64,000 nt of DNA from Synechococcus sp. PCC 7336 (GTDB lineage Bacteria; Cyanobacteriota; Cyanobacteriia; Thermostichales; PCC-7336): the NCBI RefSeq assembly GCF_000332275.1, contig NZ_CM001776.1, positions 4,214,008 to 4,278,007 of the forward strand. The letters run 5' to 3'. This document shows, piece by piece, positions 6,591 to 25,698 of the stretch (positions are counted from its first letter, which is position 1; each line of letters opens with the position of its first letter). The position numbers and the translations under genes are program-made. Below the pieces are notes generated by a model. That model saw only the letters and a list, made by a program, of their open reading frames with translations. It searched no databases and was not told where the DNA came from.

Positions 6591-8447
6591 TCAAGCTTCT
6601 GAGCTGATGGTCTCTATCAGCAGGATCGCGCCCCGATTTTGGCGATCCGCTCCCACCAGCGGATCGAAGCTAACTTTACATTGAATGGGCTGACCCTTAC
6701 GGTTGACGGCTTCGAGGCTCGTTTCGCAGGGTCCTTCTCCAGCCAGAGAATTGTGAATCGGCTCTCGCAGTTGTTCGAGGGGCAAGCCAATATCCAATCC
6801 GAATAAGGACCGATCTTTCACCTCATCCGACCTCAACCCCCAGAGGTTTTCCGACTCGTGGTTCCAGGCCAGAATATTCATTTGGCTGTCGATGATAATG
6901 AGGCCAACTTTCAGACTTGCGAAGATGGATTGCAAAAATGCGTTGGCTTGGTTGAGTTCGGCTGTGCGCAAGCGCAGCTCGTCGTTGATCGTCTGCAGCT
7001 CTTCATTGGTGGACTGGAGCTCTTCGTTCATCGTCTCCAGTTCTTCGTTCGTGGACTGGAGCTCTTCATTAGTGGTTTCCAATTCTTCATTGGTGGATTG
7101 GAGCTCTTCGTTCGTGGTTTCTAGCTCCTCGTTACTGGATTGGAGCTCTTCATTCGTGGTTTCCAACTCTTGATTGGAACGCTCCAGCTCGTTCTGTAGA
7201 TGTTGATAGCGGGTCACATCGGCAAACGAAATGCTGACTCCGAGAATATCGCTACCATTTTCTCGAAGAGGACTGAACTGCACCTCCAGTAACTGAGTTT
7301 CTTCCTCCGACACGTTGCGCGTCACGTCAGGAATATCGATCGTCATCCCCTCGCTATAGACCCGATCGATTAAAGACCGCAACTCTAATGGGCGGTAGGA
7401 AATTTCTAGATCTTGAAGGGGGCGGCCAATATCTTTTAGATTGATGCCGAATAGGGAGCGGGCTAGGGCATTGGCTAGAACCATATTGCCGTTAAAATCC
7501 ACCACGATCTGTGCGATTGGCCCACTGTTAAATGCCGCATCTCGCAGGCGAACTTGAGCGGTAAGAATGCCACCGGCCTCGTCATTGCCGGTTTGAGCCA
7601 GCACTAACAGCCGATCGTGCAAGTTAACACTGGGCACTTTGGCAAAGATGCGATGTTGCAAACTCAGAGGAGTAAATAAATTGGGGTGGGTCATCAACAT
7701 TTCTGCTTTGCCCAGAAATAAAGCACCCGTGTTTTTGAGGGCAAAGTGAAGCCTAGCCAAGATGCGTCTTTGAGTCTCGGCATTGAAATACATTAGGGTG
7801 TTGCGGCAGACTAACAGGTCGAGTCGGGAAATTGGGGCATCTTGCACTAAATCGTGGCGGCCAAAGATGACCGCACGGCGCAGATCTTGGCGAAAGACAT
7901 GGCGATCCCCAAGGGGCTCGAAGTATTTTTCTCGTAGTTCGTTCGGCAGAGGCTCGATCTCTTTTGAGCTATAGCTGGCATGGCGGGCTTGGGTGAGAGC
8001 TTCTTCGTCCACGTCTGTAGCATAGATTTTGACCCGCTGGCGAAACTGATGGGCCCCGATCGATTCCGCCAGGATGATGGCCAGAGTATAGGCTTCTTCT
8101 CCCGAAGCGCACCCCGCGCTCCAGATCCGAATGGGTTCGTTAGATGTCTTGCCTTTAAGCACGTTGGGCAATGTATGGTGCCAGAGATAATCCCAGGCTG
8201 ACTTGTCCCTAAAAAAGGCCGTTACATTAATCAAAATGGTGTTGAACAAAGCATCAAACTCTTCCGGGTGGACTTCGAGATAATCGAGATAATCGCCAAA
8301 ATTGTCGATCTCGCGACTGCGCATTTGCTTCGTCACTCGACGCCGGAGTGACGATCGCTTATAGCCCGTAAAGTCAAAGCCTCGCGTCCGCCTCAGATAG
8401 TCCAGCAGGGCTTCAAATACTCGTTCTTCCTCAGTACTCGAACTCAT
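6591..8447 (-). CDS. CheR methyltransferase fused to coiled coil and PAS domains
   Basis: A 618-residue protein. Residues about 10-60 are the CheR N-terminal helical domain, and 75-270 the S-adenosylmethionine-binding domain with IRIWSAGCASGEEAYTLA. A PAS domain follows at about 305-410, then a long coiled coil (about 415-490) built of almost perfect seven-residue repeats of the type NEELQST/NEELETT, then a second PAS domain to the C terminus. Classical CheR methylates glutamates of chemoreceptors; CheR-PAS fusions next to CheB occur in signalling loci whose targets are often unknown. The ATG overlaps the CheB stop (ATGA), so the pair is co-translated. The coiled coil probably dimerises the protein and passes the PAS signal. 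Confidence 0.88.
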   Translation of the reverse strand: MSSSTEEERVFEALLDYLRRTRGFDFTGYKRSSLRRRVTKQMRSREIDNFGDYLDYLEVHPEEFDALFNTILINVTAFFRDKSAWDYLWHHTLPNVLKGKTSNEPIRIWSAGCASGEEAYTLAIILAESIGAHQFRQRVKIYATDVDEEALTQARHASYSSKEIEPLPNELREKYFEPLGDRHVFRQDLRRAVIFGRHDLVQDAPISRLDLLVCRNTLMYFNAETQRRILARLHFALKNTGALFLGKAEMLMTHPNLFTPLSLQHRIFAKVPSVNLHDRLLVLAQTGNDEAGGILTAQVRLRDAAFNSGPIAQIVVDFNGNMVLANALARSLFGINLKDIGRPLQDLEISYRPLELRSLIDRVYSEGMTIDIPDVTRNVSEEETQLLEVQFSPLRENGSDILGVSISFADVTRYQHLQNELERSNQELETTNEELQSSNEELETTNEELQSTNEELETTNEELQSTNEELETMNEELQSTNEELQTINDELRLRTAELNQANAFLQSIFASLKVGLIIIDSQMNILAWNHESENLWGLRSDEVKDRSLFGLDIGLPLEQLREPIHNSLAGEGPCETSLEAVNRKGQPIQCKVSFDPLVGADRQNRGAILLIETISSEA

Positions 8448-9085
8448 TCAGAATCCTTAGCGGTTACTAATGCAACCAATGCGGCCGCGATGTCGGGTAG
8501 AGGGAGGACAAAATCTACAGCACCGGTTTGGATGGCCGAGCTCGGCATGCCGGAGAATTCCGCTGTTTGCTCCTCTTGAACAATAACGGTACCGCCCATT
8601 TTTTTCACCGCTTCCACTCCCATAGCGCCGTCGCTGCCAGTCCCCGTAAGAACTACGGCGATGGCGCGGTCTTTGTGACTGGCGGCGACTGAATCAAACA
8701 GTAAGTCGGCAGATGGGCGAACAAAATGAACCAATTCCGACTGAGTCAAGCTCAAGCTTCGGTCTGGGTCGGCTAACAGATGGCGATTGGGTGGCGCGAT
8801 ATAGACCATTCCCGGCACGAGGCGATCGCCTTGTGCCGCCTGCTTGACGGTTAAGGAGGTACGGCGACTAAGTATATCCGCGATCAGAGAGCGATGCCTG
8901 GGATCGAGGTGTTGTACCACAACGATGGGGACTGGAAAGTCGGCTGGCAGATTGGAGAGGACTTCACTCAATGCGTTAAGTCCGCCGGCAGAGGTGGCGA
9001 TCGCCACGATGTCAAATGCCGTCTCGGCCAATTGAGAGTCCCGATCGTAGGTGTTCTGGGAGTTCGAATTATCCACAGCGGGCAC
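8444..9085 (-). CDS. CheB-type methylesterase, catalytic domain only
   Basis: A 213-residue protein consisting of a CheB methylesterase domain with a short polar N-terminal leader. The catalytic triad can be placed: Ser in ATSAGG, His in VVQHLDPRH and Asp in LTGTGSDGAMG. There is no receiver domain, so the esterase is not gated by phosphorylation in the usual way; control may come from the fused PAS domains of the CheR partner, whose start overlaps this stop. Family knowledge: CheB removes methyl groups from receptor glutamates or deamidates glutamines. No receptor gene adjoins the pair; the nearest MCP is about 10 kb away in another operon. Confidence 0.87.
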   Translation of the reverse strand: MPAVDNSNSQNTYDRDSQLAETAFDIVAIATSAGGLNALSEVLSNLPADFPVPIVVVQHLDPRHRSLIADILSRRTSLTVKQAAQGDRLVPGMVYIAPPNRHLLADPDRSLSLTQSELVHFVRPSADLLFDSVAASHKDRAIAVVLTGTGSDGAMGVEAVKKMGGTVIVQEEQTAEFSGMPSSAIQTGAVDFVLPLPDIAAALVALVTAKDSE

Positions 9086-11235: not shown

Positions 11236-11739
11236 ATGCGCGATGCTGTCGCAACCATTATTCAAAACTACGACCGCGTAGGCCGCTATCTCGACCCGAA
11301 TGCGATCGCCGGTCTCAAGTCCTATTTCGACTCGGGCGCGGTACGAATTCAGGCCGTTCGGGCGATCAATCTCAATGCTGCCGATATCGTCAAATCTGCA
11401 GCCGCACAACTCTTTACCGACGTTCCCGACCTGCTGCGTCCCGGCGGCAATGCCTACACCACTCGCCGCTACGCTGCCTGCCTGCGGGATATGGACTACT
11501 TTTTGCGCTACGCCAGCTATGCCTTAGTGGCTGGCAGTTTCGACGTGCTCGACGAGCGGGTCTTGGCGGGTTTGCGAGAAACCTACAACTCTTTAGGTGT
11601 CCCCCCCGGTCCGATCGTTCAGAGCATCGAACGGATGAAAGACGAAGTCTTGAACCTGCTGGAGGATGGTGCTGACTCCAGCCTGGTGACCGCGCCGTTC
11701 GAGTATATGGCTGCCCAACTCAGCGAAACCAATATCTAA
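11236..11739 (+). CDS. apcF: allophycocyanin beta-18 core subunit
   Basis: A 167-residue phycobiliprotein beta-type subunit. The N terminus MRDAVATIIQNYDRVGRYLD, the RPGGNAYTTRRYAACLRDMDYFLRY segment with the bilin-binding Cys (in YAACLRD), and the VAGSFDVLDERVLAGLRETYNSLGVPPGP segment match ApcF rather than ApcB, which has a different C terminus. ApcF replaces one beta subunit in the basal phycobilisome core cylinders and, with ApcE, forms a terminal emitter region passing energy to the photosystems. Length is slightly above that of ApcB, as expected. It starts 24 bases before tlyA, an arrangement with no obvious functional logic. Confidence 0.93.
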   Translation: MRDAVATIIQNYDRVGRYLDPNAIAGLKSYFDSGAVRIQAVRAINLNAADIVKSAAAQLFTDVPDLLRPGGNAYTTRRYAACLRDMDYFLRYASYALVAGSFDVLDERVLAGLRETYNSLGVPPGPIVQSIERMKDEVLNLLEDGADSSLVTAPFEYMAAQLSETNI

Positions 11740-13579: not shown

Positions 13580-13850
13580 TTACGAACCAAAGGTCGCGTA
13601 GCCGAAGGTCACGTTAAAGCGGCGGCACCAAATCACGGCAGACTCAAACGCCTCGATATCGACATCTTCTGGCACCCGATAGCGCTGCGTACCGCTGACT
13701 CGCTCTAGGCGACCGAGATTGACGACGTAGTCGCTAGCGTTATAGCTGCGGGGAATGTCTCGTGCGTGCAGCAGTACGAACAGATCGGGACCGCGATCGG
13801 TGCGGAAGTTTTCATCCAGTTCTACATCTCCTGGGATGAGAGGCTTATGA
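13580..13850 (-). pseudogene. DM13-domain gene remnant (3' part only)
   Basis: Read on the minus strand, the sequence encodes about 85 residues of a DM13 domain: ELDENFRTDRGPDLFVLLHA, then YVVNLGRLERVSGTQRYRVP, then FESAVIWCRRFNVTFGYATF, ending at a TAA. DM13 domains are predicted redox or electron-transfer modules, often in secreted proteins. In this frame there is a stop six codons before the recognisable domain and no ATG, GTG or TTG in between, so the signal peptide and start are missing. It abuts the 3' end of the Uma2 gene. I read it as a gene truncated at its 5' end. Confidence 0.7.
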
Positions 13851-14483
13851 GAGAGTCTCTAACTGTCTGCGCAAATGACGGCTTGCGGCACTGGTGTTAG
13901 AGTTATACGCCGCCTGCAAAGACTCAGAAACAATCTGAGGAATATTGCGGATCGCAAAATAGCGGCTATCTGTACGAGCAACATAGCGATCGCCTTCCAA
14001 GCGATAAACCACTAACTCGTCCTCTTTTAACAACCACACCTCGGGAACCCGATAGATGAGATAGTCATTCACATCCGTATAGCTGGTGACATCCACCTCA
14101 ATTGCTAAATCCGGTGGCGGATCTATCCTCCAATCCATTCGATCCTTTCCGGCTACTGCTTGCCAATGCTCGATATACAGACAGTAGTCCGGTTCTATGC
14201 CGCTCTCCTGTGGCAAAGCCATCGTAATGGGTGTAAATGCCTCGCAATCGCGTTCCAAACTATCCAGCACAGCCATCGCGATCGCTGCAAGCATATGGAC
14301 CTTGCGCCCGTGGTCGGGTAGGGGAACCATTAACAGAATTTCTCCCGCTCGGTACTTGAGGCGAGGAAGCGCGCGATCGCCTCGCTGTTGAGTCAACTGT
14401 TGATAGTCATCCCAGGTTCCTGGAAGGCGCACTACTGCACCTGGCGGTAATTGAAGTCGATCTGGCGTAACAACTGCAAACAT
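13845..14483 (-). CDS. Uma2-family (DUF820) restriction-endonuclease-like protein
   Basis: A 212-residue protein of the Uma2 family, greatly expanded in cyanobacteria and having a PD-(D/E)xK nuclease fold. Visible family marks are KYRAGEILLMVPLPDHGRKVH near the N terminus, the GIEPDYCLYI strand, PPDLAIEVDVTSYT, and EVWLLKEDELVVYRL with the active-site-like strand. Their biological job is not established; many are linked to mobile DNA. The coding end overlaps the start of the DM13 remnant region. A second Uma2 gene lies in the cassette array at 37831. Confidence 0.88.
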   Translation of the reverse strand: MFAVVTPDRLQLPPGAVVRLPGTWDDYQQLTQQRGDRALPRLKYRAGEILLMVPLPDHGRKVHMLAAIAMAVLDSLERDCEAFTPITMALPQESGIEPDYCLYIEHWQAVAGKDRMDWRIDPPPDLAIEVDVTSYTDVNDYLIYRVPEVWLLKEDELVVYRLEGDRYVARTDSRYFAIRNIPQIVSESLQAAYNSNTSAASRHLRRQLETLS

Positions 14484-14579: not shown

Positions 14580-15050
14580 CTAAGCAGCAACCGGAATCGA
14601 TAGCGCTAGGATTTTCTCTAGATCGAGGACGAAAACACGCCCGCTGCCAGCGAACAGAACGTGACTGGCGATCGCGTGGGGAGATTGGCAAGCTTCGGCA
14701 GACGGGATCGATTCTTCGGCAGGCGGAAGAGGTTCTAAAGCCTCGGTTGCAATCGCGAGTAGATTCGGCAAACTATCGGCCAACAGGCCCCAAAGATTGA
14801 GATCGCCATCCCGCAAGACAATTAGGAATTGGCGATCGCTGCTGGGGGTAGCTTCGGACAAGCGCTCGTGCAGGTTGAGCCAGCGGATGGAATGGGAGCC
14901 AGAGGGCACGAACCCCGCTTCCCGAAAGCTGAGGATGACCTGTGGAGAAGCTTCTACCACCTTGACAATCGTCTCTGCCGCCAGCATGAGGGGAACATTG
15001 GCAATTGCAAAAGTGAGGTATTGAGTGGTAGGGGATTCAGTCGTGGCCAT
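14580..15050 (-). CDS. CheW-like adaptor, last gene of the phototaxis operon
   Basis: A 156-residue CheW-fold protein: YLTFAIANVPLMLAAETIVKVVEASP and the C-terminal VLFAGSGRVFVLDLEKIL fit strands of the adaptor. It is more divergent than the CheW at 23819 and lacks the usual GVxxxRGE motif, so it may be a specialised adaptor. It follows the CheA gene by 38 bases on the same strand. In chemosensory arrays CheW bridges CheA and receptors. Taken with the other four genes this gives an operon with two adaptors. Confidence 0.78.
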   Translation of the reverse strand: MATTESPTTQYLTFAIANVPLMLAAETIVKVVEASPQVILSFREAGFVPSGSHSIRWLNLHERLSEATPSSDRQFLIVLRDGDLNLWGLLADSLPNLLAIATEALEPLPPAEESIPSAEACQSPHAIASHVLFAGSGRVFVLDLEKILALSIPVAA

Positions 15051-15088: not shown

Positions 15089-18000
15089 TTAAGGTGCCGC
15101 GATCGCGAGGGCGGGTTGTGCCAAATAGCGCGTGGCGGTTTCGAGGATGATCGGCTCCATATAGGGCTTAGTGAGATAGCCCGTGGCCCCTAAACTGAGG
15201 GCGGTTTGGCGGTGTTTGCCAGCCGTGCGGGAGGTCAGCATCACAACTGGAATCTCTTTGAGCTGGACATCCTGTTGGCGCTGGCGCAAGAAGTCAAAGC
15301 CGTTCATCTGGGGCATCTCGATATCGCAAAAGATCAGCCCAACTCGACCTTCGTATTGCTGGATTTGGTCGAGACCGTCGCGTCCGTTGCGGGCTTTGAG
15401 CACGTGGTAGCCAGCTTTTTCGAGGGTGAGGGATAGCGACATGCGTTGAGTGATGGAGTCATCCACAACCAATACGGTTGCTCTGCGATCGCCCCCAGTC
15501 GGAGTTGTTGAAGCCGCCGCCTTTTCGTTGGAGGAGGGCAGAGCGGTCGCTCCCGAGCGCTGGGGAATGGCAATCGTCCGCGCGCGAGACGCTTCGCGAT
15601 CGATCTGCTGCGCCAGGGTTTCGCCATCGATCGCCAGGGCGAGGCGACCGTCAGCCAGAACCGTACCGCCGCAGACATAGTTCGGGGGAGACAGAGCGCT
15701 GCCGAGGGGGCGAACGATCGATTCCTGTTCGGCTAGGGCGCGATCGACGGCTAAGCCGATCTGGCGATCTCGCGATCGCACCAGCAATATTGTCGATGTC
15801 AGGTTTGTCTCCAGGGTTAGGAAGCTGTTGGGAGGTGGCTCGTTGGGGTCGGGCACGGTGGAGTGATAGTCCAGAATTTCGGCGAGGGGATAGACCGGGA
15901 TGAGGCAAGTTTCGTCTCCTTTGCCCCAGCGCAGGACTGGCTTGCCACCCTGTTGCTTGAGCTGGTCGGGCTGCGGCCTGACAATATGCTCAATTGCCTC
16001 CGCCAGTAAGGCGTAGGATTTGTGTCCCACTTGGCACAGCAGCAGTTTTTCAATCGTTTGCTTGAGGGGAATTTGGATGGTGAAGGTGGTGCCTCGGCCC
16101 AGTTCGGTTTCGACGGCGATACTCCCCTGTAAAGCTTGCAGTCGCGATCGCACCACATCGAGACCGACGCCGCGACCGGAAATATCGCTGACGGATTCGG
16201 CGGTGGAAAAGCCCGGTTGGAAGAGCAACTCAATCGCGCGATCCCGATCGAGTTGACTGGCTGCTTCCGCTGACAGGAGACCTCGCTCGACCGCCCGCTG
16301 ACAAATTCGTTGGGGATCGATGCCGCCTCCATCGTCCTGCAGTCGCACAATCAGATTGCTGCCGCGATGGTCGGCCTGAATCGCGATATGGCCCCGCTCG
16401 GGCTTACCCGCCTTCTGGCGCAGCTCGACGGGTTCGATGCCGTGGTCGAAGGCGTTGCGAACTAGGTGCAAGAGGGGATCGTAAAGTTTCTCGACGACGG
16501 CTTTGTCGGCCAGCACGTGTCGGCCAATGGTCTCTAGTTCGACCGGCTTGCGGTGCCGAATACTGAGTTGTTTTAAGGTGCGGGGGAAGCGATCGAGTAG
16601 AGTACCCAGCGGCACCATGCGGGCATCCATCAAGGTGTTGCGGCTATTGGTGACCAGCCAGCGCTGCTTTTCGAGGGCGAGGTTAGAGTCTCGGGCAAAG
16701 AGTTCGATCGCGCCTGCGGACTCGCTTAAGTAAACCGAACTATCGGCTGTATCTAGGAGCAGGTGCTGAATTTCGGAATAGCGATCCATTTCGAGCGGAT
16801 CGAAGTCATCGCTGCGCTGCTCTGGGCTGCGATCGCGATGGGATTGGCGGACCGCAAGGGTGGCGATGCGATCGGAGATCTCGCGCAGCTTGCCGAGGCG
16901 GTTTTGGTGCCCCTCTAGTTTGAGAAAGAGCGTGCGCACGGCGTCGCGCAGTTGCTCGTTTTGCAGGACTTGGCGATTGTGCAGGGTGAGGATTTCAGCG
17001 ATGAAGTAATTGAGGCGATCGAGGTGCTCGACGTCCACCCGTACCGTTTCGGCAGAGGGAGAGGGGACTGGGGACGAGCCTTCTGCTGAGGTGGCTGGTT
17101 GGGGTGCAAAGCGAGATTTTTCGGGGTTGGTAAAGCCGAAGCCCGATAGCAGCGATGTGGATGAAATATTGAGGGCAGAATCGCTGTTGGAGGGATTGCT
17201 GCGGTCGGGATCGCGATTGGAGGATCGGGCAGATGGTGGGGTGATTAGCGAGGGGAGTTCGGCTAGGAATGCGCCTGCAGAGATGCGATCGTCCGCTTCG
17301 GCTGGCGATGTTGGCTTGGCACTTTCTTCCGGTTCCTGCGCTGCTGGTGTCGGCACTGGCAGATCGCTGCTGGGAGAATTGGGTGATTGCTGGGCAATGA
17401 GCGAGGCGAGTTTGGCCAGCAATGCTTCGATAGAGGGGAGATCGTCTGCTGCGGCTGGCGATGTCGGGCGATCGCCTTCAGATTCCTGCGCCTCTAGCGT
17501 CGAAACTGGCGAATCGTTTGGGGGAGTTGGGGCAGTAGTTGGGCGATCGCCATCGACTGCTCGATTGGCGGGTTCCTGGGAAAGAACTGCTGCAGAGGGG
17601 TCGGAACGATCGGCTTGGGTATCAGCTAACTGAGCTGGAGGGACGACGGGTTCGGATGGCTCCAATCCATTAGCAGTCTCTCGATCGGAACTGGAGGTTT
17701 CAATCTGGGCAGCGGGGGCGGTCAGTTCCTCATTACCCGACCTGACTGCTGATAGGGTGCGCGCGGCAAGTGCCGTGAGGTCGTCGAATGACAGTGTTTG
17801 AAAGTCTGGCAGATCGAGGGGGCGATCGAAGGCAACATCGATAGGCTCTGGCGGACTGGATTCGGGGGTTGCTGCGGGGGAAATCGGCTGCTCCTCGGGC
17901 TCTTCAAGAGCGCTTGCCTCCGCAATCTCGGGTGTAGATTTGACTTCGGGCAGCGAATGCTCTGGGTCTGCAGGTGCATCTACTTCCGCAGACGCGATCG

Positions 18001-19285
18001 CACTCATTGCCCCATCGGCTGCAATCGGAATCTCCTCCAGATCGGCAGTCTCAGAAGTGCTCTCTGCCACAGTCTCGCAAATCAGTTCGACTTCAGACGG
18101 CAGATTCGTTGCGCCTTCCAACAGCTCCGGCAACCCACTATCGCCGCTTTCATGAGGAGTCTCGGGAGCCTCTTCCAAGAAGTTAGCCAGCCTGAAGTCG
18201 GCCGATGCGTCAGTCGTATCGGCGATGCTGCCATTTCTGTCAGGTACGGATGGAGAGGCCTTGCCCCATAGCTCATCCATTAACGATTCGTCCAGAGCAG
18301 ACATCGCGCTGTCATCATCGACCCCCTCCCCATCGCCAGATTGGGAGAGCTCTAAGTCGGCATCTGCACTGCCCCAAAAGTCATCCAGTCCTCCTGCTTC
18401 ACCCGTAGGGGCAAATAAATTCTTCAGCTCTGAAACGTCTGCTTCGTCAAAAAAATCCGGCTCGACCTCTTCTATATCGGGGGCAGGAGCGCTCGAAGCG
18501 ATACCTCCTGCCAATTCGCAGAGGGATTCGCTGGGTTGACCGCCAGAGTCGCGATCGCCCTGCAAAACCGCCTGCTGGCCCGCTCGAAAATCTGTCAGGG
18601 CTAAGCGGGCAATCTCCGCGACGCGGTCGGGATGGCAGTTCAATGCCGCCAGAGTGGTGTGGGCGATCGCCTCAAAACCCGTCAGCCCCAACGATTCTGC
18701 CAACCCTGCAAACACCTCGCATTGCACTGGCAAAATCTGCCCCAATTCGCAGGAGTCGCCGTCGATCGCCTCCTGCAACTGCTCCAGCCGCTGCTCTACC
18801 CCCGTCTCAAACATCGATTGAGTCAGATCGAACCCCAGCTCGGCAGAAGAGGGCACTTCAGCTTCTTCGTGAAAGGCATCCCCTGCCAGTGCCTGCAATT
18901 GCTCCACAATTCTCTGGGCGCGCTCGACACAAGCAGACCCATCTGACACAGGCAAGCCTGCCAATTCTGCTTCCAGCGGTGCCTGCAAGCATTCGTATCC
19001 CTCAAACATCAGCCCTAGCATCTCTGGACTCATTTCCAGATCGGGCTGACACATCGCCTTGAAGGCATCTTCTAGCGTGTGGGATACCGCTTCGACAGTA
19101 CTCACCTCCACACTGGCGGCAGCCCCTTTCAGGGTGTGGGTGACGCGCATCAGTGCGTGCATCTGTTGCAGGTGGTATTCCTCCTGCATGGCAAAAAGAG
19201 TTTCCTCCATCTCGCGCAGCAGTTCGGGCGCTTCTTCTCGAAAATATGCGTAGCTTTGTGCTCGAATGGATGGGTCGATGGTCAT
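15089..19285 (-). CDS. CheA-type hybrid histidine kinase with C-terminal receiver (PixL/TaxAY type)
   Basis: A 1398-residue kinase. An HPt domain (1-110) carries the phosphoacceptor His50 in THTLKG. A very long Pro/Ser/Glu-rich linker (about 230-770) replaces the compact P2 region. Then come the dimerisation helices, an HATPase domain with NAFDHGIEP, DDGGGIDP and SGRGVGLDVV, a CheW-like regulatory domain, and a receiver (about 1268-1390; Asp in IFCDIEMPQMNG, Lys in LTKPY). This is the domain order of cyanobacterial PixL/TaxAY/PilL kinases for phototaxis or pilus motility. The ATG at 19285 is chosen over a TTG eight codons earlier. It is co-directional with the MCP gene 128 bases upstream. Confidence 0.92.
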   Translation of the reverse strand: MTIDPSIRAQSYAYFREEAPELLREMEETLFAMQEEYHLQQMHALMRVTHTLKGAAASVEVSTVEAVSHTLEDAFKAMCQPDLEMSPEMLGLMFEGYECLQAPLEAELAGLPVSDGSACVERAQRIVEQLQALAGDAFHEEAEVPSSAELGFDLTQSMFETGVEQRLEQLQEAIDGDSCELGQILPVQCEVFAGLAESLGLTGFEAIAHTTLAALNCHPDRVAEIARLALTDFRAGQQAVLQGDRDSGGQPSESLCELAGGIASSAPAPDIEEVEPDFFDEADVSELKNLFAPTGEAGGLDDFWGSADADLELSQSGDGEGVDDDSAMSALDESLMDELWGKASPSVPDRNGSIADTTDASADFRLANFLEEAPETPHESGDSGLPELLEGATNLPSEVELICETVAESTSETADLEEIPIAADGAMSAIASAEVDAPADPEHSLPEVKSTPEIAEASALEEPEEQPISPAATPESSPPEPIDVAFDRPLDLPDFQTLSFDDLTALAARTLSAVRSGNEELTAPAAQIETSSSDRETANGLEPSEPVVPPAQLADTQADRSDPSAAVLSQEPANRAVDGDRPTTAPTPPNDSPVSTLEAQESEGDRPTSPAAADDLPSIEALLAKLASLIAQQSPNSPSSDLPVPTPAAQEPEESAKPTSPAEADDRISAGAFLAELPSLITPPSARSSNRDPDRSNPSNSDSALNISSTSLLSGFGFTNPEKSRFAPQPATSAEGSSPVPSPSAETVRVDVEHLDRLNYFIAEILTLHNRQVLQNEQLRDAVRTLFLKLEGHQNRLGKLREISDRIATLAVRQSHRDRSPEQRSDDFDPLEMDRYSEIQHLLLDTADSSVYLSESAGAIELFARDSNLALEKQRWLVTNSRNTLMDARMVPLGTLLDRFPRTLKQLSIRHRKPVELETIGRHVLADKAVVEKLYDPLLHLVRNAFDHGIEPVELRQKAGKPERGHIAIQADHRGSNLIVRLQDDGGGIDPQRICQRAVERGLLSAEAASQLDRDRAIELLFQPGFSTAESVSDISGRGVGLDVVRSRLQALQGSIAVETELGRGTTFTIQIPLKQTIEKLLLCQVGHKSYALLAEAIEHIVRPQPDQLKQQGGKPVLRWGKGDETCLIPVYPLAEILDYHSTVPDPNEPPPNSFLTLETNLTSTILLVRSRDRQIGLAVDRALAEQESIVRPLGSALSPPNYVCGGTVLADGRLALAIDGETLAQQIDREASRARTIAIPQRSGATALPSSNEKAAASTTPTGGDRRATVLVVDDSITQRMSLSLTLEKAGYHVLKARNGRDGLDQIQQYEGRVGLIFCDIEMPQMNGFDFLRQRQQDVQLKEIPVVMLTSRTAGKHRQTALSLGATGYLTKPYMEPIILETATRYLAQPALAIAAP

Positions 19286-19413
19286 GACATACTTGCCTGG
19301 AGAAGCCAACGGGGCGATCGGAAATTAGGGTCGAGTCAGGAGGGTCGAGGTTAGACGAGGAACGAGGCAATCCCCGCCCCTACAGCCTCTCCCCGAGATC
19401 GAATATCGCTGCC

Positions 19414-22400
19414 TCAATCCACCTTGAACTGGTTAGCCCGAGATTGTAGGTCTTGGGCGGTGGCGAGCACCTGCTCGAAGGAAGCAGAGAGCTCGGTGGT
19501 ATCTGCCGATGTCTGGCTGGCAATCTCCGCCACTTCGTTCATGGTGAGAGTCACGAGCTGCGATTGGGTGGTTTGGCTTTGGGTAGCGGCTGCAATCCCT
19601 TGCCCCAGTTGACGAATGTGCTCGGTAGCCCGAACGATCTCGTTCAAGTTGCGGCGGGCGTCGTTCACTAAATTAGTTCCCTCCACCACCTGGTGAATGC
19701 CGCTGTCCATTGCATTGGACACCTCTACGGTGCCTGCCTGGATTTCTTCCACGAGAGCTGCAATCTCTGTGGTTGCTGTGGCCGATTGGCGAGCTAGCGA
19801 ACGGACTTCGTCCGCTACCACTGCAAAGCCCCGCCCATACTCGCCCGCCCGGGTAGCCTCAATAGCGGCATTGAGTGAGAGCAGGTGGGTTTGGGTGGTG
19901 AAGTTCTCAATCAGACTGACCACCTTCGAGATTTTCTGAGAAGATTCGCTCAAGCGCTTAATGCGCTTGCTGGTTTCCGCCACTGTTTCGCGAATGGCAG
20001 AGATGCTCTCTACCGTGCGGTCCATAGAGGAGTCTCCAGCGCGAACGGTTTGATTGGCTTGCTCGACCGCCTCGTTGACCTGACCGGCGTTTGCTGTCAT
20101 TGCATCAGTGGCTACTACCATCCCCTGCAGTTGAGCGATCGCTTCGCCGATCGCTTCAAGCTGTTTCTCCGCTTGGGTGGCCACTTTGGCGATCGCCGTA
20201 CCGCTGGCTTGAGAGGTTTCGGCTACACCACTGGAGGCTGCTTGTACCTGCACCACAATGGCCCGCAGGCTTTGCAGCGTAGAGTTATAGGCAGAAGCAA
20301 TCGTTCCGACCTCCGTTTCGGTAATCGGCGCGCGCACCGTCAGATCTCCCTGTAGGGCAGGACGCACTGCGGTGAGCAATTGCACCGCTTGCTGCTGAAA
20401 TTCTTCTTTCGCGACTTTCTCCCGTTTGGCAGATTCAGCCAGTTGCTCGGACTGAGTTTGAACCGTTTCTAAATAGTCGGCTTGCTGCAGGGCAATGTTA
20501 AGCTGACCGGCAATACGGCGGGCAAAGTCCACCTCCGAGTCATCCCACTGGCGGGGGCCATCGCACTTGTGGATGGCAAATAGACCCCACAAGACATCCC
20601 CTTTGACGAGGGGCATCAACATACTGGCTTTAATCTGCAGCTTGGAGAGCACTTGAACCAAGCAATCTTCAAGGTCTCCCAGTTCGTTAACATCGGGAAC
20701 AATCCAAGTGCGCCCTTTGCGATAGTTTTCTACTTGATTGACAAAGCAATGGTCTTGAATCTTGGCTGCCATGGCCGAGTATCTGGGCTCGGAGACATCT
20801 TCGACCACAAACTCGCCGGAGGTGTAATTTGACTCCGGCGAGAATTGGAACAGGCCAACGCGATCGACGTTTAGCAATTGGCGGATATCCCGTGCCGAAG
20901 CTTGCAATACCTGTGGCAAATCGGCGGTCTGGCGCAAGCGCTCTGCAACTTTGGCAATGAGTTGTTCCTGTTGGGTCTTGCGCTCTAACTGTGCAATATT
21001 CTCCAATTTTTCTAAGCCAATTGCCAAGAAATTGCTGATTTGGAGAACAACATTCACCTCGTCGTCCTGCCAAGTCCTCGGTCCCGAGTTTTGGTAAACC
21101 GCCAAGAGACCCCAAAGCTTATCGCCCTGAAAAATGGGGACGTTAATATACGCCCGACATTGGAACTTCTCTAAACTTTCGAGGTAGCAAGGGGAAAATC
21201 CTGCCTCGTAAATATCGTCAACGCGACTGAAGCGCTTGCCCTGCATATACAGCCCGCCCTTCGTGTCTTTCAAGTAGGTGTCGGCATTGGCTTTACGGGG
21301 GGCATTGAGGTCTTTGATGAGACAGCGATCGCTACTCATTAAGTCTTTTTTGAGGGCGTCGTCTCGCTCTTGCAGATCCACAATCGATGGCCAGCCGGGA
21401 CCGACAGATTCCGCCACCAATTCCCCACTCCAATCGGGGTAGAACATGTAAACGCCGACTCGGTCCACCTTGAGTAGCTGGCGCATATCTTGGGTGACTG
21501 CCTGGAAGATCGACTTCTCATCGCGGGCGATCTGGATTTTTGAGACCGCGCGGCTGACTAACTTTTCTCGCTCTGCATTCGCAGTTAACTGGTTGAAGGT
21601 CTCGGATTTTTGTAGAGAGATCGCCACAAACTTAGCAATCTTGAGTACGAGATTGACGGCATCGTCCCCCCAATCTCGCGGACCGTCATTTTGATAGACA
21701 GCCAAGAGTCCCCACAGTTTTTCGCCGTGAAAAATCGGCACGTTGATATAGGCTCGACATTGGAATTTTTCTAAACTTTCCAGATAGCAAGCTGAAAAGC
21801 CTGCTTCGCGAATATCGTCAACGCGGCTGTAGGGCTTGCCCTGCATGTAGAGGCCGCCCTTCGTATCTTTCAGGTAGGTATCGGTACCGACTTTTTGGGG
21901 AGCATTGAGATCCTTAATCAGACAGCGATCGCTCCTCATCAAGTCCTGTTTGAGTTTGCTATCGGTTTGCTGCAAGTCCACAATCGAAGGCCAGCCAGGA
22001 CCGACGGATTCCGCCACTAACTCGCCGCTCCAATCGGGATAGAACTTGTAGATGCCGACGCGATCGGCGTTGAGCAGCTTGCGCGTATCTTGTGTAACGG
22101 CGCTGAAGATAGTTTTTGCGTCAGTGGTTTGCTGCAGGTTGGCCAGCAAGCGGCCCACCAGCTCCTCTTGAGAGACTTTCTCCGCGAGTTCGTCAATCGT
22201 CTCCACTTTTTGAATGGCGATCGCCGTACACTGTGCGACCTTCACCACTAAATTGACGGCATCGTCCCCCCATTCCCGAGGGCCGTCATTCTGATAGGCC
22301 GCCAAGAGTCCCCACAGTTTGTCCCCGAGAAAAACTGGGACGTTGATATAGGCCCGACATTGGAATTTTTCTAAACTTTCCAGGTAGCAAGCCGAAAAGC

Positions 22401-23637
22401 CTGCTTCGCGAATATCGTCAACTCGGCTATAGGGCTTGCCCTGCATATACAGGCCGCCTTTTGTATCTTTCAGGTAAGTATCGCTGCCGACCTGACGGGG
22501 GGCGTCGAGATTTTTAATCAAACAGCGATCGCTGCTCATCAAATCCTGCTTCAGCTTGTCGTCAGAATCTTGTAGCTTCACAATCGAGGGCCAGCCGGAA
22601 CCCACCGATTCGGCCACCAGTTCGCCACTCCAGTCGGGGTAAAACTTGTAGATACCGACACGATCGCAATTGAGCAATTGCCGCAACTCTAGCGTCACGG
22701 TCTGGAAAATACTGTCAATATCGGATGACTGCTGCAGGTTGGCCAACAGCTTGGCGATCAGTTTCTCGCGCTCGCGCTGTTCGTCCAGGGTGGCCTGAAA
22801 CTCTACCGGCTGCAGCCCCAGCATCAATTCTGTCGCCACTTGGGAGGTGAGAATCACTTCTGCGTCCTGCCACTGCCGCACGCGATCGCATTGCTGCACC
22901 ACCAAAAGCCCCCAGAGTCGATCGTCAAAGACAATCGGTAAGCTCAGGCTGGACTTGACTTGGAATTGCTCCACTAACTGCTGTTGATAGGGGCTAAATT
23001 GGCTGTTCTCGGTGTCGATCTCCACTAGAGGGGACTGGAGATAAGTGGAAAAATCTCCGCCAAAGGCGATCGCGGGCAGGATAGTGCCGAGGGTGGGGGT
23101 ATAGCCGGGGGTCATGGCCTCTGCCAAGATCTTGCCGCGCTCGCCATCGACAAACTGGAAGATCGAGACGCGATTGGCCTTGAGGACTCTAAACAGTTCC
23201 CCCACAGCTGTATCGAGTAGTTCCTCAAGCGTGTTGGTGCGTCGCAGGCGATCGCCAAAGGCTAAAATCTTGCGGACGTTCGAGAGACTTTCAACTTCTA
23301 CCGTCACTTCCTGCGCCGAATGAGGCCCCGAATGAGCGAGCAGTTCCCCTCGTGTTTTATCGGCGGTCCTTGCAAGATCCAAGGATTCTCGCTGCACGGT
23401 AGCGGCATTGTTCGCGGGGTATCCGTTCGACACATTCTGGCCGCTCGTCGTTATGCTGTGCGAGGATACCGCTGTCGCACTGGCCGTTTGCGAGCGATAA
23501 ACCCCAGATCGGTTCGCAGCGCTGCCATTCCCCGTGCGCCCCTGCCCGCCTGGGTCAGTGGGGGCTTTTGTCGGCTGGTCTTCGAGATTGTCTCCAGCTT
23601 GGGGGAGCGAGGTAGGAATGGGATTGCTGTTTTGCAT
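19414..23637 (-). CDS. methyl-accepting protein with five GAF domains (PixJ/TaxD-type photoreceptor candidate)
   Basis: A 1407-residue soluble receptor. After a polar N terminus come five GAF domains (about 130-290, 300-480, 500-670, 695-865, 885-1045), a HAMP-like linker (about 1080-1130) and an MCP signalling domain whose hairpin tip region includes GFAVVADEVRSLARQS. GAF2, 3 and 4 are close copies of one another, also at DNA level. Each has a Cys at the place where cyanobacteriochromes bind bilin (AGFSxCYLESLEKFQCRAY), followed by Tyr instead of the common His; the position of the second Cys in DXCF proteins reads DTYL. GAF1 and GAF5 lack the Cys. No membrane segment is evident. The operon context with CheW and CheA-REC matches pix/tax phototaxis loci. 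Chromophore binding is an inference. Confidence 0.88.
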   Translation of the reverse strand: MQNSNPIPTSLPQAGDNLEDQPTKAPTDPGGQGRTGNGSAANRSGVYRSQTASATAVSSHSITTSGQNVSNGYPANNAATVQRESLDLARTADKTRGELLAHSGPHSAQEVTVEVESLSNVRKILAFGDRLRRTNTLEELLDTAVGELFRVLKANRVSIFQFVDGERGKILAEAMTPGYTPTLGTILPAIAFGGDFSTYLQSPLVEIDTENSQFSPYQQQLVEQFQVKSSLSLPIVFDDRLWGLLVVQQCDRVRQWQDAEVILTSQVATELMLGLQPVEFQATLDEQREREKLIAKLLANLQQSSDIDSIFQTVTLELRQLLNCDRVGIYKFYPDWSGELVAESVGSGWPSIVKLQDSDDKLKQDLMSSDRCLIKNLDAPRQVGSDTYLKDTKGGLYMQGKPYSRVDDIREAGFSACYLESLEKFQCRAYINVPVFLGDKLWGLLAAYQNDGPREWGDDAVNLVVKVAQCTAIAIQKVETIDELAEKVSQEELVGRLLANLQQTTDAKTIFSAVTQDTRKLLNADRVGIYKFYPDWSGELVAESVGPGWPSIVDLQQTDSKLKQDLMRSDRCLIKDLNAPQKVGTDTYLKDTKGGLYMQGKPYSRVDDIREAGFSACYLESLEKFQCRAYINVPIFHGEKLWGLLAVYQNDGPRDWGDDAVNLVLKIAKFVAISLQKSETFNQLTANAEREKLVSRAVSKIQIARDEKSIFQAVTQDMRQLLKVDRVGVYMFYPDWSGELVAESVGPGWPSIVDLQERDDALKKDLMSSDRCLIKDLNAPRKANADTYLKDTKGGLYMQGKRFSRVDDIYEAGFSPCYLESLEKFQCRAYINVPIFQGDKLWGLLAVYQNSGPRTWQDDEVNVVLQISNFLAIGLEKLENIAQLERKTQQEQLIAKVAERLRQTADLPQVLQASARDIRQLLNVDRVGLFQFSPESNYTSGEFVVEDVSEPRYSAMAAKIQDHCFVNQVENYRKGRTWIVPDVNELGDLEDCLVQVLSKLQIKASMLMPLVKGDVLWGLFAIHKCDGPRQWDDSEVDFARRIAGQLNIALQQADYLETVQTQSEQLAESAKREKVAKEEFQQQAVQLLTAVRPALQGDLTVRAPITETEVGTIASAYNSTLQSLRAIVVQVQAASSGVAETSQASGTAIAKVATQAEKQLEAIGEAIAQLQGMVVATDAMTANAGQVNEAVEQANQTVRAGDSSMDRTVESISAIRETVAETSKRIKRLSESSQKISKVVSLIENFTTQTHLLSLNAAIEATRAGEYGRGFAVVADEVRSLARQSATATTEIAALVEEIQAGTVEVSNAMDSGIHQVVEGTNLVNDARRNLNEIVRATEHIRQLGQGIAAATQSQTTQSQLVTLTMNEVAEIASQTSADTTELSASFEQVLATAQDLQSRANQFKVD

Positions 23638-23818: not shown

Positions 23819-24331
23819 CTAACTGAGCGGCAAGTAATCGAGTGTGCGAGTATCGATAACAGGTCCGGCATCGATAAAATATCCGCCTAAATAAGGCAAA
23901 AGTTGCTCGGGAAAAACCCCCGGTCCTGCCTCTTGCAACCGGTCTTCGTCATACAGTTCGATATCCTGTACGGCCTGTACCGCGATGCCCAGTTTCTGCT
24001 GACCCACCTGGACGACAATCGCCTTCACGCTCTGCTGCGCGCTCTCGAGCTCGCAGACTGAAGTCATGCCCGTTAAGGCATTCAGATCGAGCATCCACAA
24101 CATTTCCCCTCGCCAGTTGTAGACCCCCAATACCCAGGTGGGCATGGCGGGTACAGGCAAAATATCGACTGGATGGATATGGAGAATCTCAGTCGCTTGA
24201 GCTAGTGGCAAGAGAGCCCACTCCTCCCCTAACTGAAGGCGAAGAAAGGCTTGTCGCAGGTCTGGAGCGGGGGGTTCGAGTGCAAAGCCCTCAAGTCCCG
24301 TTACTCCAGCCTGTAATTGCTGCTCGCTCAT
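23819..24331 (-). CDS. CheW-type adaptor (PixI-like)
   Basis: A 170-residue CheW protein with the classic features: LRLQLGEEWALLPLAQATEILHI, then VPAMPTWVLGVYNWRGEMLWMLDLNAL with the YNWRGE adaptor motif, then VQVGQQKLGIAVQAVQDIELY. It links the MCP to CheA at the signalling array. It lies between the CheY-like gene and the MCP gene, the order of pixH-pixI-pixJ-pixL operons. The gap of 181 bases to the MCP gene is moderate. Confidence 0.9.
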   Translation of the reverse strand: MSEQQLQAGVTGLEGFALEPPAPDLRQAFLRLQLGEEWALLPLAQATEILHIHPVDILPVPAMPTWVLGVYNWRGEMLWMLDLNALTGMTSVCELESAQQSVKAIVVQVGQQKLGIAVQAVQDIELYDEDRLQEAGPGVFPEQLLPYLGGYFIDAGPVIDTRTLDYLPLS

Positions 24332-24853: not shown

Positions 24854-25219
24854 CTAGGCAGGTAGGAGTTGCCGCACCGTGCTGAGAAATTCTTGACCGT
24901 CGACTGGCTTGGGGACATAGGCATCGGCCCCTACCATCGAGCCCCAAAGTTTATCGGCATCAGTCCCCTTGGTGGAACACATCACTACCGGAATATCTTT
25001 GGTGGCAGGGTCAGATTTGAGATCGCGGCAAAGCTCGAAGCCACTTTGTCCCGGCAAAATCACATCTAACACGACGAGGTCCGGGCGCTGCGATCGCATG
25101 GCCGATTGAGCTTCTTCACTACTGGAAACCTTAACGACCCCAAAATAAGCCTGTTTCAAGTACTGCGTCAGCACTTCAGCTTCAGTCAGGCTGTCTTCTA
25201 CAAGCAATACAGTCCTCAA
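24854..25219 (-). CDS. CheY/PilH-type response regulator (PixH-like), TTG start
   Basis: A 121-residue receiver: RTVLLVEDSLTEAEVL with its acidic pair, phosphoacceptor Asp in LVVLDVILPGQSG, switch residues in VVMCSTKGT, and Lys in VPKPVDG. SLTEAEVL is typical of PilH/PixH/TaxY proteins. I place the start at the TTG of 25219, because the domain begins at once there and a GGAG lies about eight bases upstream on the minus strand; the longer frame adds about 60 residues without family character. It would take phosphate from the CheA-like kinase. Confidence 0.85.
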   Translation of the reverse strand: MRTVLLVEDSLTEAEVLTQYLKQAYFGVVKVSSSEEAQSAMRSQRPDLVVLDVILPGQSGFELCRDLKSDPATKDIPVVMCSTKGTDADKLWGSMVGADAYVPKPVDGQEFLSTVRQLLPA

Positions 25220-25698
25220 GGGAATACTCCGTTTTTGCGCGATACAGATGATGTGTTGGGTAGGCCATTGGACAAATCCGGCGATGCAAGCTGGACCCAC
25301 AATCGCTAGCTTACCCAGGCTGCAAGGAAGAAGTTGCGATCGCCAAGCCTCAAACTTTTGCCCTTCGGGCAGCAGAGTTGCTCTCAATTGAGGGGCTGCC
25401 GTTGCCACCGCAGCGCAACTCCCCCACGGATAGTTAGGGGGTCGATTGCAGTATCTGAAGACTCTCGGTCTCTAGTAAAGATGCGGCCTATAATGATAAG
25501 TTTCTCTTTATCTTCCCCATTACAAACGATCGTGTCGCTAGCGATCGCAATTGGAGTTTTCTGTGTTTAGATGCCCATTAATGTTTAGATGCCCATTAAT
25601 GACTGTCTTTTTTATTTTTAGGCGGACGTAGGGAAACCTGCACGTCCACCATACAGCCTGACGTAATTTACTTTACCCAGTTAAGAGGTTTTTTAGCC
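25220..25698. promoter_or_regulatory. divergent upstream region of the CheY-like gene and bicA, with a tandem repeat
   Basis: About 480 bases without a gene. An 18-base unit, TGTTTAGATGCCCATTAA, is repeated head to tail at 25564-25599, about 100 bases before bicA; it contains inverted halves (ATTAA/TTTAG-like) and could be a regulator site. An AGAGG ribosome-binding sequence lies at about 25682-25687 before the GTG start of bicA. Confidence 0.5.

Follow-up and report, generated by a model that had tools for sequence, protein, structure and literature searches.

Three consecutive insert-Cys-type cyanobacteriochrome domains in a putative taxis photoreceptor of Synechococcus sp. PCC 7336

In this work, we analysed a 64,000-nucleotide stretch of the Synechococcus sp. 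PCC 7336 genome (contig NZ_CM001776.1, positions 4,214,008 to 4,278,007; hereafter, the window), with a focus on a minus-strand gene coding for a 1407-residue receptor that combines five GAF domains with an MCP signalling domain. The data obtained make it very probable that this protein is a taxis photoreceptor of the PixJ/PtxD kind, in which GAF2, GAF3 and GAF4 act as insert-Cys sensors of near-UV/violet light with a second cysteine bonded to C10 of the bilin, and GAF5 belongs to the DXCF type. The features of the receptor, with their positions in the window, are the following.

19414-23637, minus strand: MCP-type photoreceptor gene, 1407 residues, five GAF domains and an MCP signalling domain (open reading frame; Pfam GAF five times, MCPsignal)
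22774-23283, minus strand: GAF1, residues 119-288, canonical bilin position without a cysteine
22183-22773, minus strand: GAF2, residues 289-485, insert-Cys type
22522-22524, minus strand: Cys372 of GAF2, in CLIK and 14 residues upstream of the DTYL Asp386, candidate second bilin thiol
22387-22389, minus strand: Cys417 of GAF2, canonical bilin cysteine, followed by Tyr (aligned with GAF3 and GAF4)
21583-22173, minus strand: GAF3, residues 489-685, insert-Cys type
21922-21924, minus strand: Cys572 of GAF3, candidate second thiol, in CLIK
21787-21789, minus strand: Cys617 of GAF3, canonical bilin cysteine, followed by Tyr (alignment to solved domains)
20983-21573, minus strand: GAF4, residues 689-885, insert-Cys type
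21322-21324, minus strand: Cys772 of GAF4, candidate second thiol, in CLIK
21187-21189, minus strand: Cys817 of GAF4, canonical bilin cysteine, followed by Tyr (alignment to solved domains)
20470-20973, minus strand: GAF5, residues 889-1056, DXCF type (DHCF with Cys964), canonical Cys992 followed by Leu
19522-19992, minus strand: MCP signalling domain, residues 1216-1372 (Pfam)

A sequence-only reading of this stretch had pointed to three near-identical GAF domains with a bilin-type cysteine followed by tyrosine and with DTYL in place of DXCF. The alignment with the solved red/green domains NpR6012g4 (6bhn), AnPixJg2 (3w2z) and Slr1393g3 (5dfx) clearly showed that the cysteine of the FSxCYLESLEKF motif in GAF2-4 (C417, C617 and C817) coincides with the bilin cysteine of these domains, which rules out an offset from the canonical site. 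The three homologous cysteines follow one another at a constant interval of 200 residues, and in the genome the bilin reductase family is matched four times and heme oxygenase twice. The supposition of that reading, a chain with three similar candidate bilin sites, thus finds support: the sites lie at the canonical position, and the genome carries bilin synthesis genes. The residue after the bilin cysteine is His (Cys-His) in all three solved domains and Tyr (Cys-Tyr) in GAF2-4. The DTYL motif, seen at the DXCF position of all three domains, aligns on the DTHL/DTYL of the solved red/green domains, and it is not strange here, since the single-Cys domain Slr1393g3 shares it.

What that reading missed is a second cysteine in each of the three domains, as well as the DXCF-type GAF5 with C964 and C992. 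Directly before DTYL, GAF2, GAF3 and GAF4 each carry an insertion of about 23 residues with a cysteine in CLIK; this is the sole large gap in the alignment with the single-Cys red/green domains 6bhn, 3w2z and 5dfx, and the insertion is also found in A3. According to the available part of PMC5240096, on which our statements about the published insert-Cys cyanobacteriochromes rest throughout, such proteins are defined by a second cysteine in a CXXR/K motif inside an insertion loop, and four members are known: Mbl3738g2 (UG2), Mbr3854g4 (UG1), NpF2164g3 (VO1) and NpR1597g2 (UB1). Phycocyanobilin binding is reported for the four, insert-Cys domains with CXXR/K were shown to photoconvert, Leu stands at the position of the DXCF Phe in all four, and DTYL occurs in UG1 and UG2 (PMC5240096). 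In GAF2-4 we found a cyanobacteriochrome-type GAF fold sequence with the canonical cysteine, an insertion with a CXXR/K cysteine, and DTYL. Moreover, the distances from the beta2 position to the insertion cysteine (32), from this cysteine to Asp (14) and from the DTYL Tyr to the helix-4 position (37) in GAF2-4 equal all three spacings of UG2 (32, 14 and 37), as computed from its published residue numbers, such as C569 and D583 (PMC5240096). A third cysteine of each domain (C427, C627 and C827, in FQC) was considered as the partner and rejected: it is not part of the insert type, because in the sample described below it occurs in just 11 of the 117 domains with the insertion and in 7 of the 79 others.

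The following mechanism is proposed, in which bilin attachment, photocycle, colour and the role in movement are all predictions. A phycocyanobilin-type bilin would be bound in GAF2-4 via the canonical C417, C617 and C817. The second cysteine (C372, C572 and C772) would be bonded to C10 of the bilin as long as the domain is in its dark 15Z state, thereby splitting the conjugation and giving near-UV/violet absorption, as reported for the published insert-Cys proteins (PMC5240096). Light would convert the chromophore to the 15E form, break the second bond and produce a longer-wavelength state, with a second colour reversing the reaction, and the change would be relayed along the linker helices into the MCP domain and from there to the adjacent CheA/CheW/CheY proteins. 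For GAF2-4, the violet/orange type appears likelier than UV/green, because the beta2 tuning position is occupied by Leu and the one on helix 4 by Phe; this follows a rule derived from the four published proteins, where a smaller beta2 residue red-shifts both states (PMC5240096). In other words, if the colour is unusual, as the sequence-only reading suspected, its ordinary likely source is the CLIK cysteine of the insertion with its near-UV/violet dark state, and not the Cys-Tyr pair.

Furthermore, Cys-Tyr and the insertion were followed across relatives by a regular-expression scan for cyanobacteriochrome-like cores at 235 loci minus L009, where near-identical cores were counted once and domains missed by the expression stayed uncounted. 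The rows L155, L226 and L227 were left out because the expression had parsed them wrongly: they are far-red/orange-like domains with Cys-His, and their Asp motif lies further upstream than the one it took. The resulting sample comprised 117 unique insert-bearing domains (including the three of the window) and 79 insertion-free domains without the DXCF cysteine; it leans both ways, the fetching profile A1 having Cys-Tyr in 13 of 13 rows and the control profile A2 coming from Cys-His domains. The results clearly showed Cys-Tyr in 117 of 117 insert-bearing domains vs. 1 of 79 insertion-free ones, the latter (L084) having a shortened insertion. The insertion contains a cysteine in 115 of the 117 (in 81 as CXXR/K, in 65 exactly 14 residues before Asp), and Trp two residues before Asp is present in none of the 117 vs. 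46 of 79 insertion-free domains. Both insert-bearing domains without the insertion cysteine, L011 and L158, still have Cys-Tyr, indicating that this pair tracks the insertion and not its cysteine. Insert-type domains that entered the tree from A2-fetched loci (two from L158, one each from L162 and L174) have Cys-Tyr in four of four cases. Cys-Tyr and DTYL had been taken as an oddity; these counts, together with DTYL in Slr1393g3, UG1 and UG2, remove that impression, and a private oddity of the window protein is ruled out. Cys-Tyr alone is no proof of an insertion, since 13 of 50 DXCF domains also have it.

The Fisher value for Cys-Tyr vs. insertion is 8e-55 with kinship ignored, and the counts should not be taken as independent events, because the backbone of the domain tree (112 of 246 domains, some selected and some drawn at random) is unresolved and only two supported contrasts were available to a sign test on independent pairs, which had no power. 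On the best tree, the insertion changes seven times, at least two of these changes being forced by the starred branches. The profile matched in 144 of 291 sampled genomes, a match being no proof of an insertion. As a separate observation, L084 (Cys at position 651 of the open reading frame), L011 and L158, which have Cys-Tyr without the insertion cysteine or most of the insertion, are possible natural red-shifted variants.

The Tyr is no bar to bilin attachment, since the bilin-binding miRFP670nano, a domain of solved structure, also has Cys-Tyr in the alignment. In the available part of PMC9378818, the change in this protein is named H87Y, and the Tyr ring is modelled as stacked on ring C. 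We infer that the Tyr assists the addition of the thiol at C10. A literature search found no stated link between Cys-Tyr and the insertion cysteine, the original VO1, UB1 and Microcoleus survey papers being outside its scope; on this point, the available text of PMC5240096 speaks only of a “CH motif” for VO1. The coupling of Cys-Tyr to the insertion and the recurrence of insert-Cys arrays in MCPs are the newer part of these findings. Tentatively, and with more doubt than confidence, we suggest that the insertion with its cysteine, the loss of the Trp before Asp and the exchange of His for Tyr form one co-evolved cassette, in which a Tyr near ring C would let the insertion cysteine add to and leave C10, so that Cys-Tyr would be both a required partner and a mark of violet/near-UV domains. 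In the receptor, such a cassette would have been triplicated and its pocket partly homogenised, giving a violet dose sensor placed before a DXCF colour sensor.

The three copies are alike in 69.5-76.6% of positions at the protein level (137-151 of 197 residues) and 69-76% at the DNA level in a gap-free alignment, so the strong likeness noted earlier stands and “near-identical” was generous wording. In the tree of 112 domains, they form a single clade (SH-aLRT support 99) apart from all sampled relatives and therefore arose within the lineage. The earlier idea of tandem duplication thus holds for lineage-specific tandem copies, but its recency does not: with a synonymous divergence (dS) of 1.2-2.0 over the domain, the duplications are not recent, and a very recent event is ruled out by this value along with a third-position identity of 49-58% and a longest identical DNA run of 29 bases. 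The GAF2/GAF3 pocket block (window positions 21583-22773, minus strand) shows a dS of 0.45, the divergence elsewhere being near saturation. Of the residues shared by the two domains, 43 of 57 in the pocket have the same codon, compared with 46 of 88 outside it (p 0.0055; three pairs of copies were examined, this being one). This suggests local gene conversion, probably confined to the GAF2/GAF3 pocket.

Arrays of two to four insert-Cys domains recur in other MCPs, with two insert-Cys plus two red/green domains as a recurring pattern. For instance, an MCP from another cyanobacterial family (L066:1875-6200) has four consecutive insert-Cys GAFs with a constant cysteine spacing of 204 residues, and these four form a group of their own (support 94), thus representing an independent array. 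Among nine multi-GAF proteins, chosen and not random, Pfam found the MCP domain in nine; among open reading frames with a single insert domain, the MCP pattern was present in 14 of 85, some of these frames being cut by locus ends. The triplication might be read as a device for light intensity (dose) rather than a plain colour sensor. Such a function, compatible with the proposed near-UV/violet sensing, seems rather unlikely: three domains with the same pocket at a constant 200-residue spacing, the codon sharing in the GAF2/GAF3 pocket and the independent four-copy array all speak for it, but redundancy or drift following tandem duplication fits three copies as well. The recurrence of same-domain arrays in MCPs makes the question of colour or dose testable.

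Three observations weigh against GAF2-4 being photoconverting near-UV/violet sensors. They are changed at sites of the red/green pocket, namely the Trp two residues before Asp, the Arg of GGRY and the His after the bilin cysteine. The AlphaFold model of GAF3, built on a 20-row alignment and with a mean confidence score (pLDDT) of 79.9, speaks for the proposed reading by its best solved-fold match, AnPixJg2 (Z 22.5, root-mean-square deviation 2.0, 172 residues aligned), but its insertion (model residues 82-105, including the insertion cysteine) has a pLDDT below 50, so the model is silent on the distance from this cysteine to the bilin. Finally, NpF2164g5, the sole natural red/green-type domain with Cys-Tyr reported in the available parts of PMC9378818 and PMC5578081, does not photoconvert. 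The last point leads to an alternative in which GAF2-4 bind bilin by the canonical cysteine and stay inert or fluorescent like NpF2164g5, which is highly fluorescent, with the insertion cysteine idle or structural; engineered domains likewise gained fluorescence after the His-to-Tyr exchange at the same position (PMC9378818). We consider this improbable, since the insertion cysteine with CXXR/K matches domains that do photoconvert (PMC5240096), and its retention in 115 of 117 relatives is hard to square with an idle residue. Even less probable is that GAF2-4 are bilin-free structural or ligand-binding GAFs with cysteines kept by descent, as the loss of the Trp, Arg and His usual in red/green domains, and GAF1 of the same protein without its canonical cysteine, might suggest: both cysteines, Asp and Tyr are kept in all three copies despite near-saturated synonymous divergence, and the changed residues differ throughout the insert-Cys type, whose four published members are reported to bind phycocyanobilin (PMC5240096). 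The suggestion that GAF2-4 belong to the single-Cys red/green type and owe an unusual colour to Cys-Tyr can hardly be held, for although red/green domains are their nearest solved relatives, the marks of that type (no insertion, Cys-His and, mostly, Trp two before Asp) are absent from GAF2-4, and Cys-Tyr without a full insertion occurs in only 1 of 79 sampled domains.

As for GAF5, its D962-H-C964-F and the canonical C992 define a DXCF domain with the two cysteines 28 residues apart, the same spacing as in TePixJ, and it groups with DXCF domains in the tree. The usual, though not defining, His after the canonical cysteine is replaced by Leu; among 50 DXCF domains, this position holds His in 34, Tyr in 13, and Leu, Gln and Arg in one each, so that the Cys-Leu of GAF5 is the only such case. 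GAF5 is likely a fourth bilin domain, which would bring the receptor to a total of four bilins. The genome has 42 GAF matches, five of them within the receptor; in the 20 stretches fetched for a survey of the others, with two weak matches left out, the canonical bilin cysteine pattern was seen in only three further GAF domains, none of them of the insertion type. A scan of the genome contigs with the whole receptor found one distant MCP only, and the plasmid records gave one match of 33% identity.

The neighbours of the receptor gene support its assignment to the PixJ/PtxD type, for cyanobacteriochrome GAFs and an MCP domain stand beside cheA, cheW and cheY genes, all assigned by Pfam.

14580-15050, minus strand: CheW-like protein
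15089-19309, minus strand: CheA-type kinase with Hpt, HATPase, CheW and receiver domains (PixL-like)
23819-24331, minus strand: CheW-like protein (PixI-like)
24854-25408, minus strand: single-receiver CheY-like protein (PixH-like)

The cheY/cheW/cheA neighbours on the same strand reproduce the layout of the pix/ptx taxis clusters as given in the available part of PMC5812497, the source of our statements on PtxD and PixJ1; the neighbours checked did not include a PATAN regulator. A hydropathy scan of the receptor revealed no membrane-helix-grade stretch (top 19-residue Kyte-Doolittle mean 1.41), so membrane helices of the PixJ1 kind, which not all members of the PixJ/PtxD group have, were not found, and the receptor is probably soluble. 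Elsewhere in the window, CheR-PAS and CheB genes (6591-9085, minus strand) lie downstream on the same strand and are possible adaptation enzymes for the receptor, a 167-residue phycobilisome-family protein is encoded at 11236-11739 (plus strand), and a protein of the Uma2 family, described in Pfam as a putative restriction endonuclease (13845-14483, minus strand), adjoins the che genes.

Taken together, the results turn an odd Cys-Tyr into a prediction of three violet/near-UV sensors and one DXCF sensor in a single taxis receptor. Judging by the sampled relatives, Cys-Tyr may also serve as a simple mark of insert-bearing domains, for few of which a measured spectrum was found.

Among known systems, the red/green domains AnPixJg2, NpR6012g4 and Slr1393g3 are closest to the insert-Cys GAFs in solved sequence and fold, but they have no insertion and no second cysteine, carry Cys-His and usually Trp before Asp, in all of which GAF2-4 differ. 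PixJ1 and TePixJ resemble the receptor as MCP receptors in a pixGHIJL-like cluster whose GAF nearest the MCP domain is of the DXCF type; in PixJ1, two GAFs are combined with two transmembrane domains (PMC5812497), whereas the present protein has five GAFs, no hydrophobic helix seen and, unlike both, Cys-Leu in its DXCF domain. PtxD (NpF2164) of Nostoc punctiforme is likewise a phototaxis receptor that joins an MCP domain to multiple GAFs, dual-Cys ones among them, with several bilins and a CheA/CheW/CheY gene cluster (PMC5812497), but its seven GAFs are of mixed colours, whereas three of the five GAFs here are of one type by triplication. With the published insert-Cys proteins, GAF2-4 share the canonical cysteine, the insertion before Asp and the CXXR/K cysteine, with DTYL as in UG1 and UG2, although UG2 has Tyr at the beta2 position and Leu on helix 4 in place of Leu and Phe (PMC5240096). 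Unlike those proteins, the receptor has three such domains consecutively in one chain.

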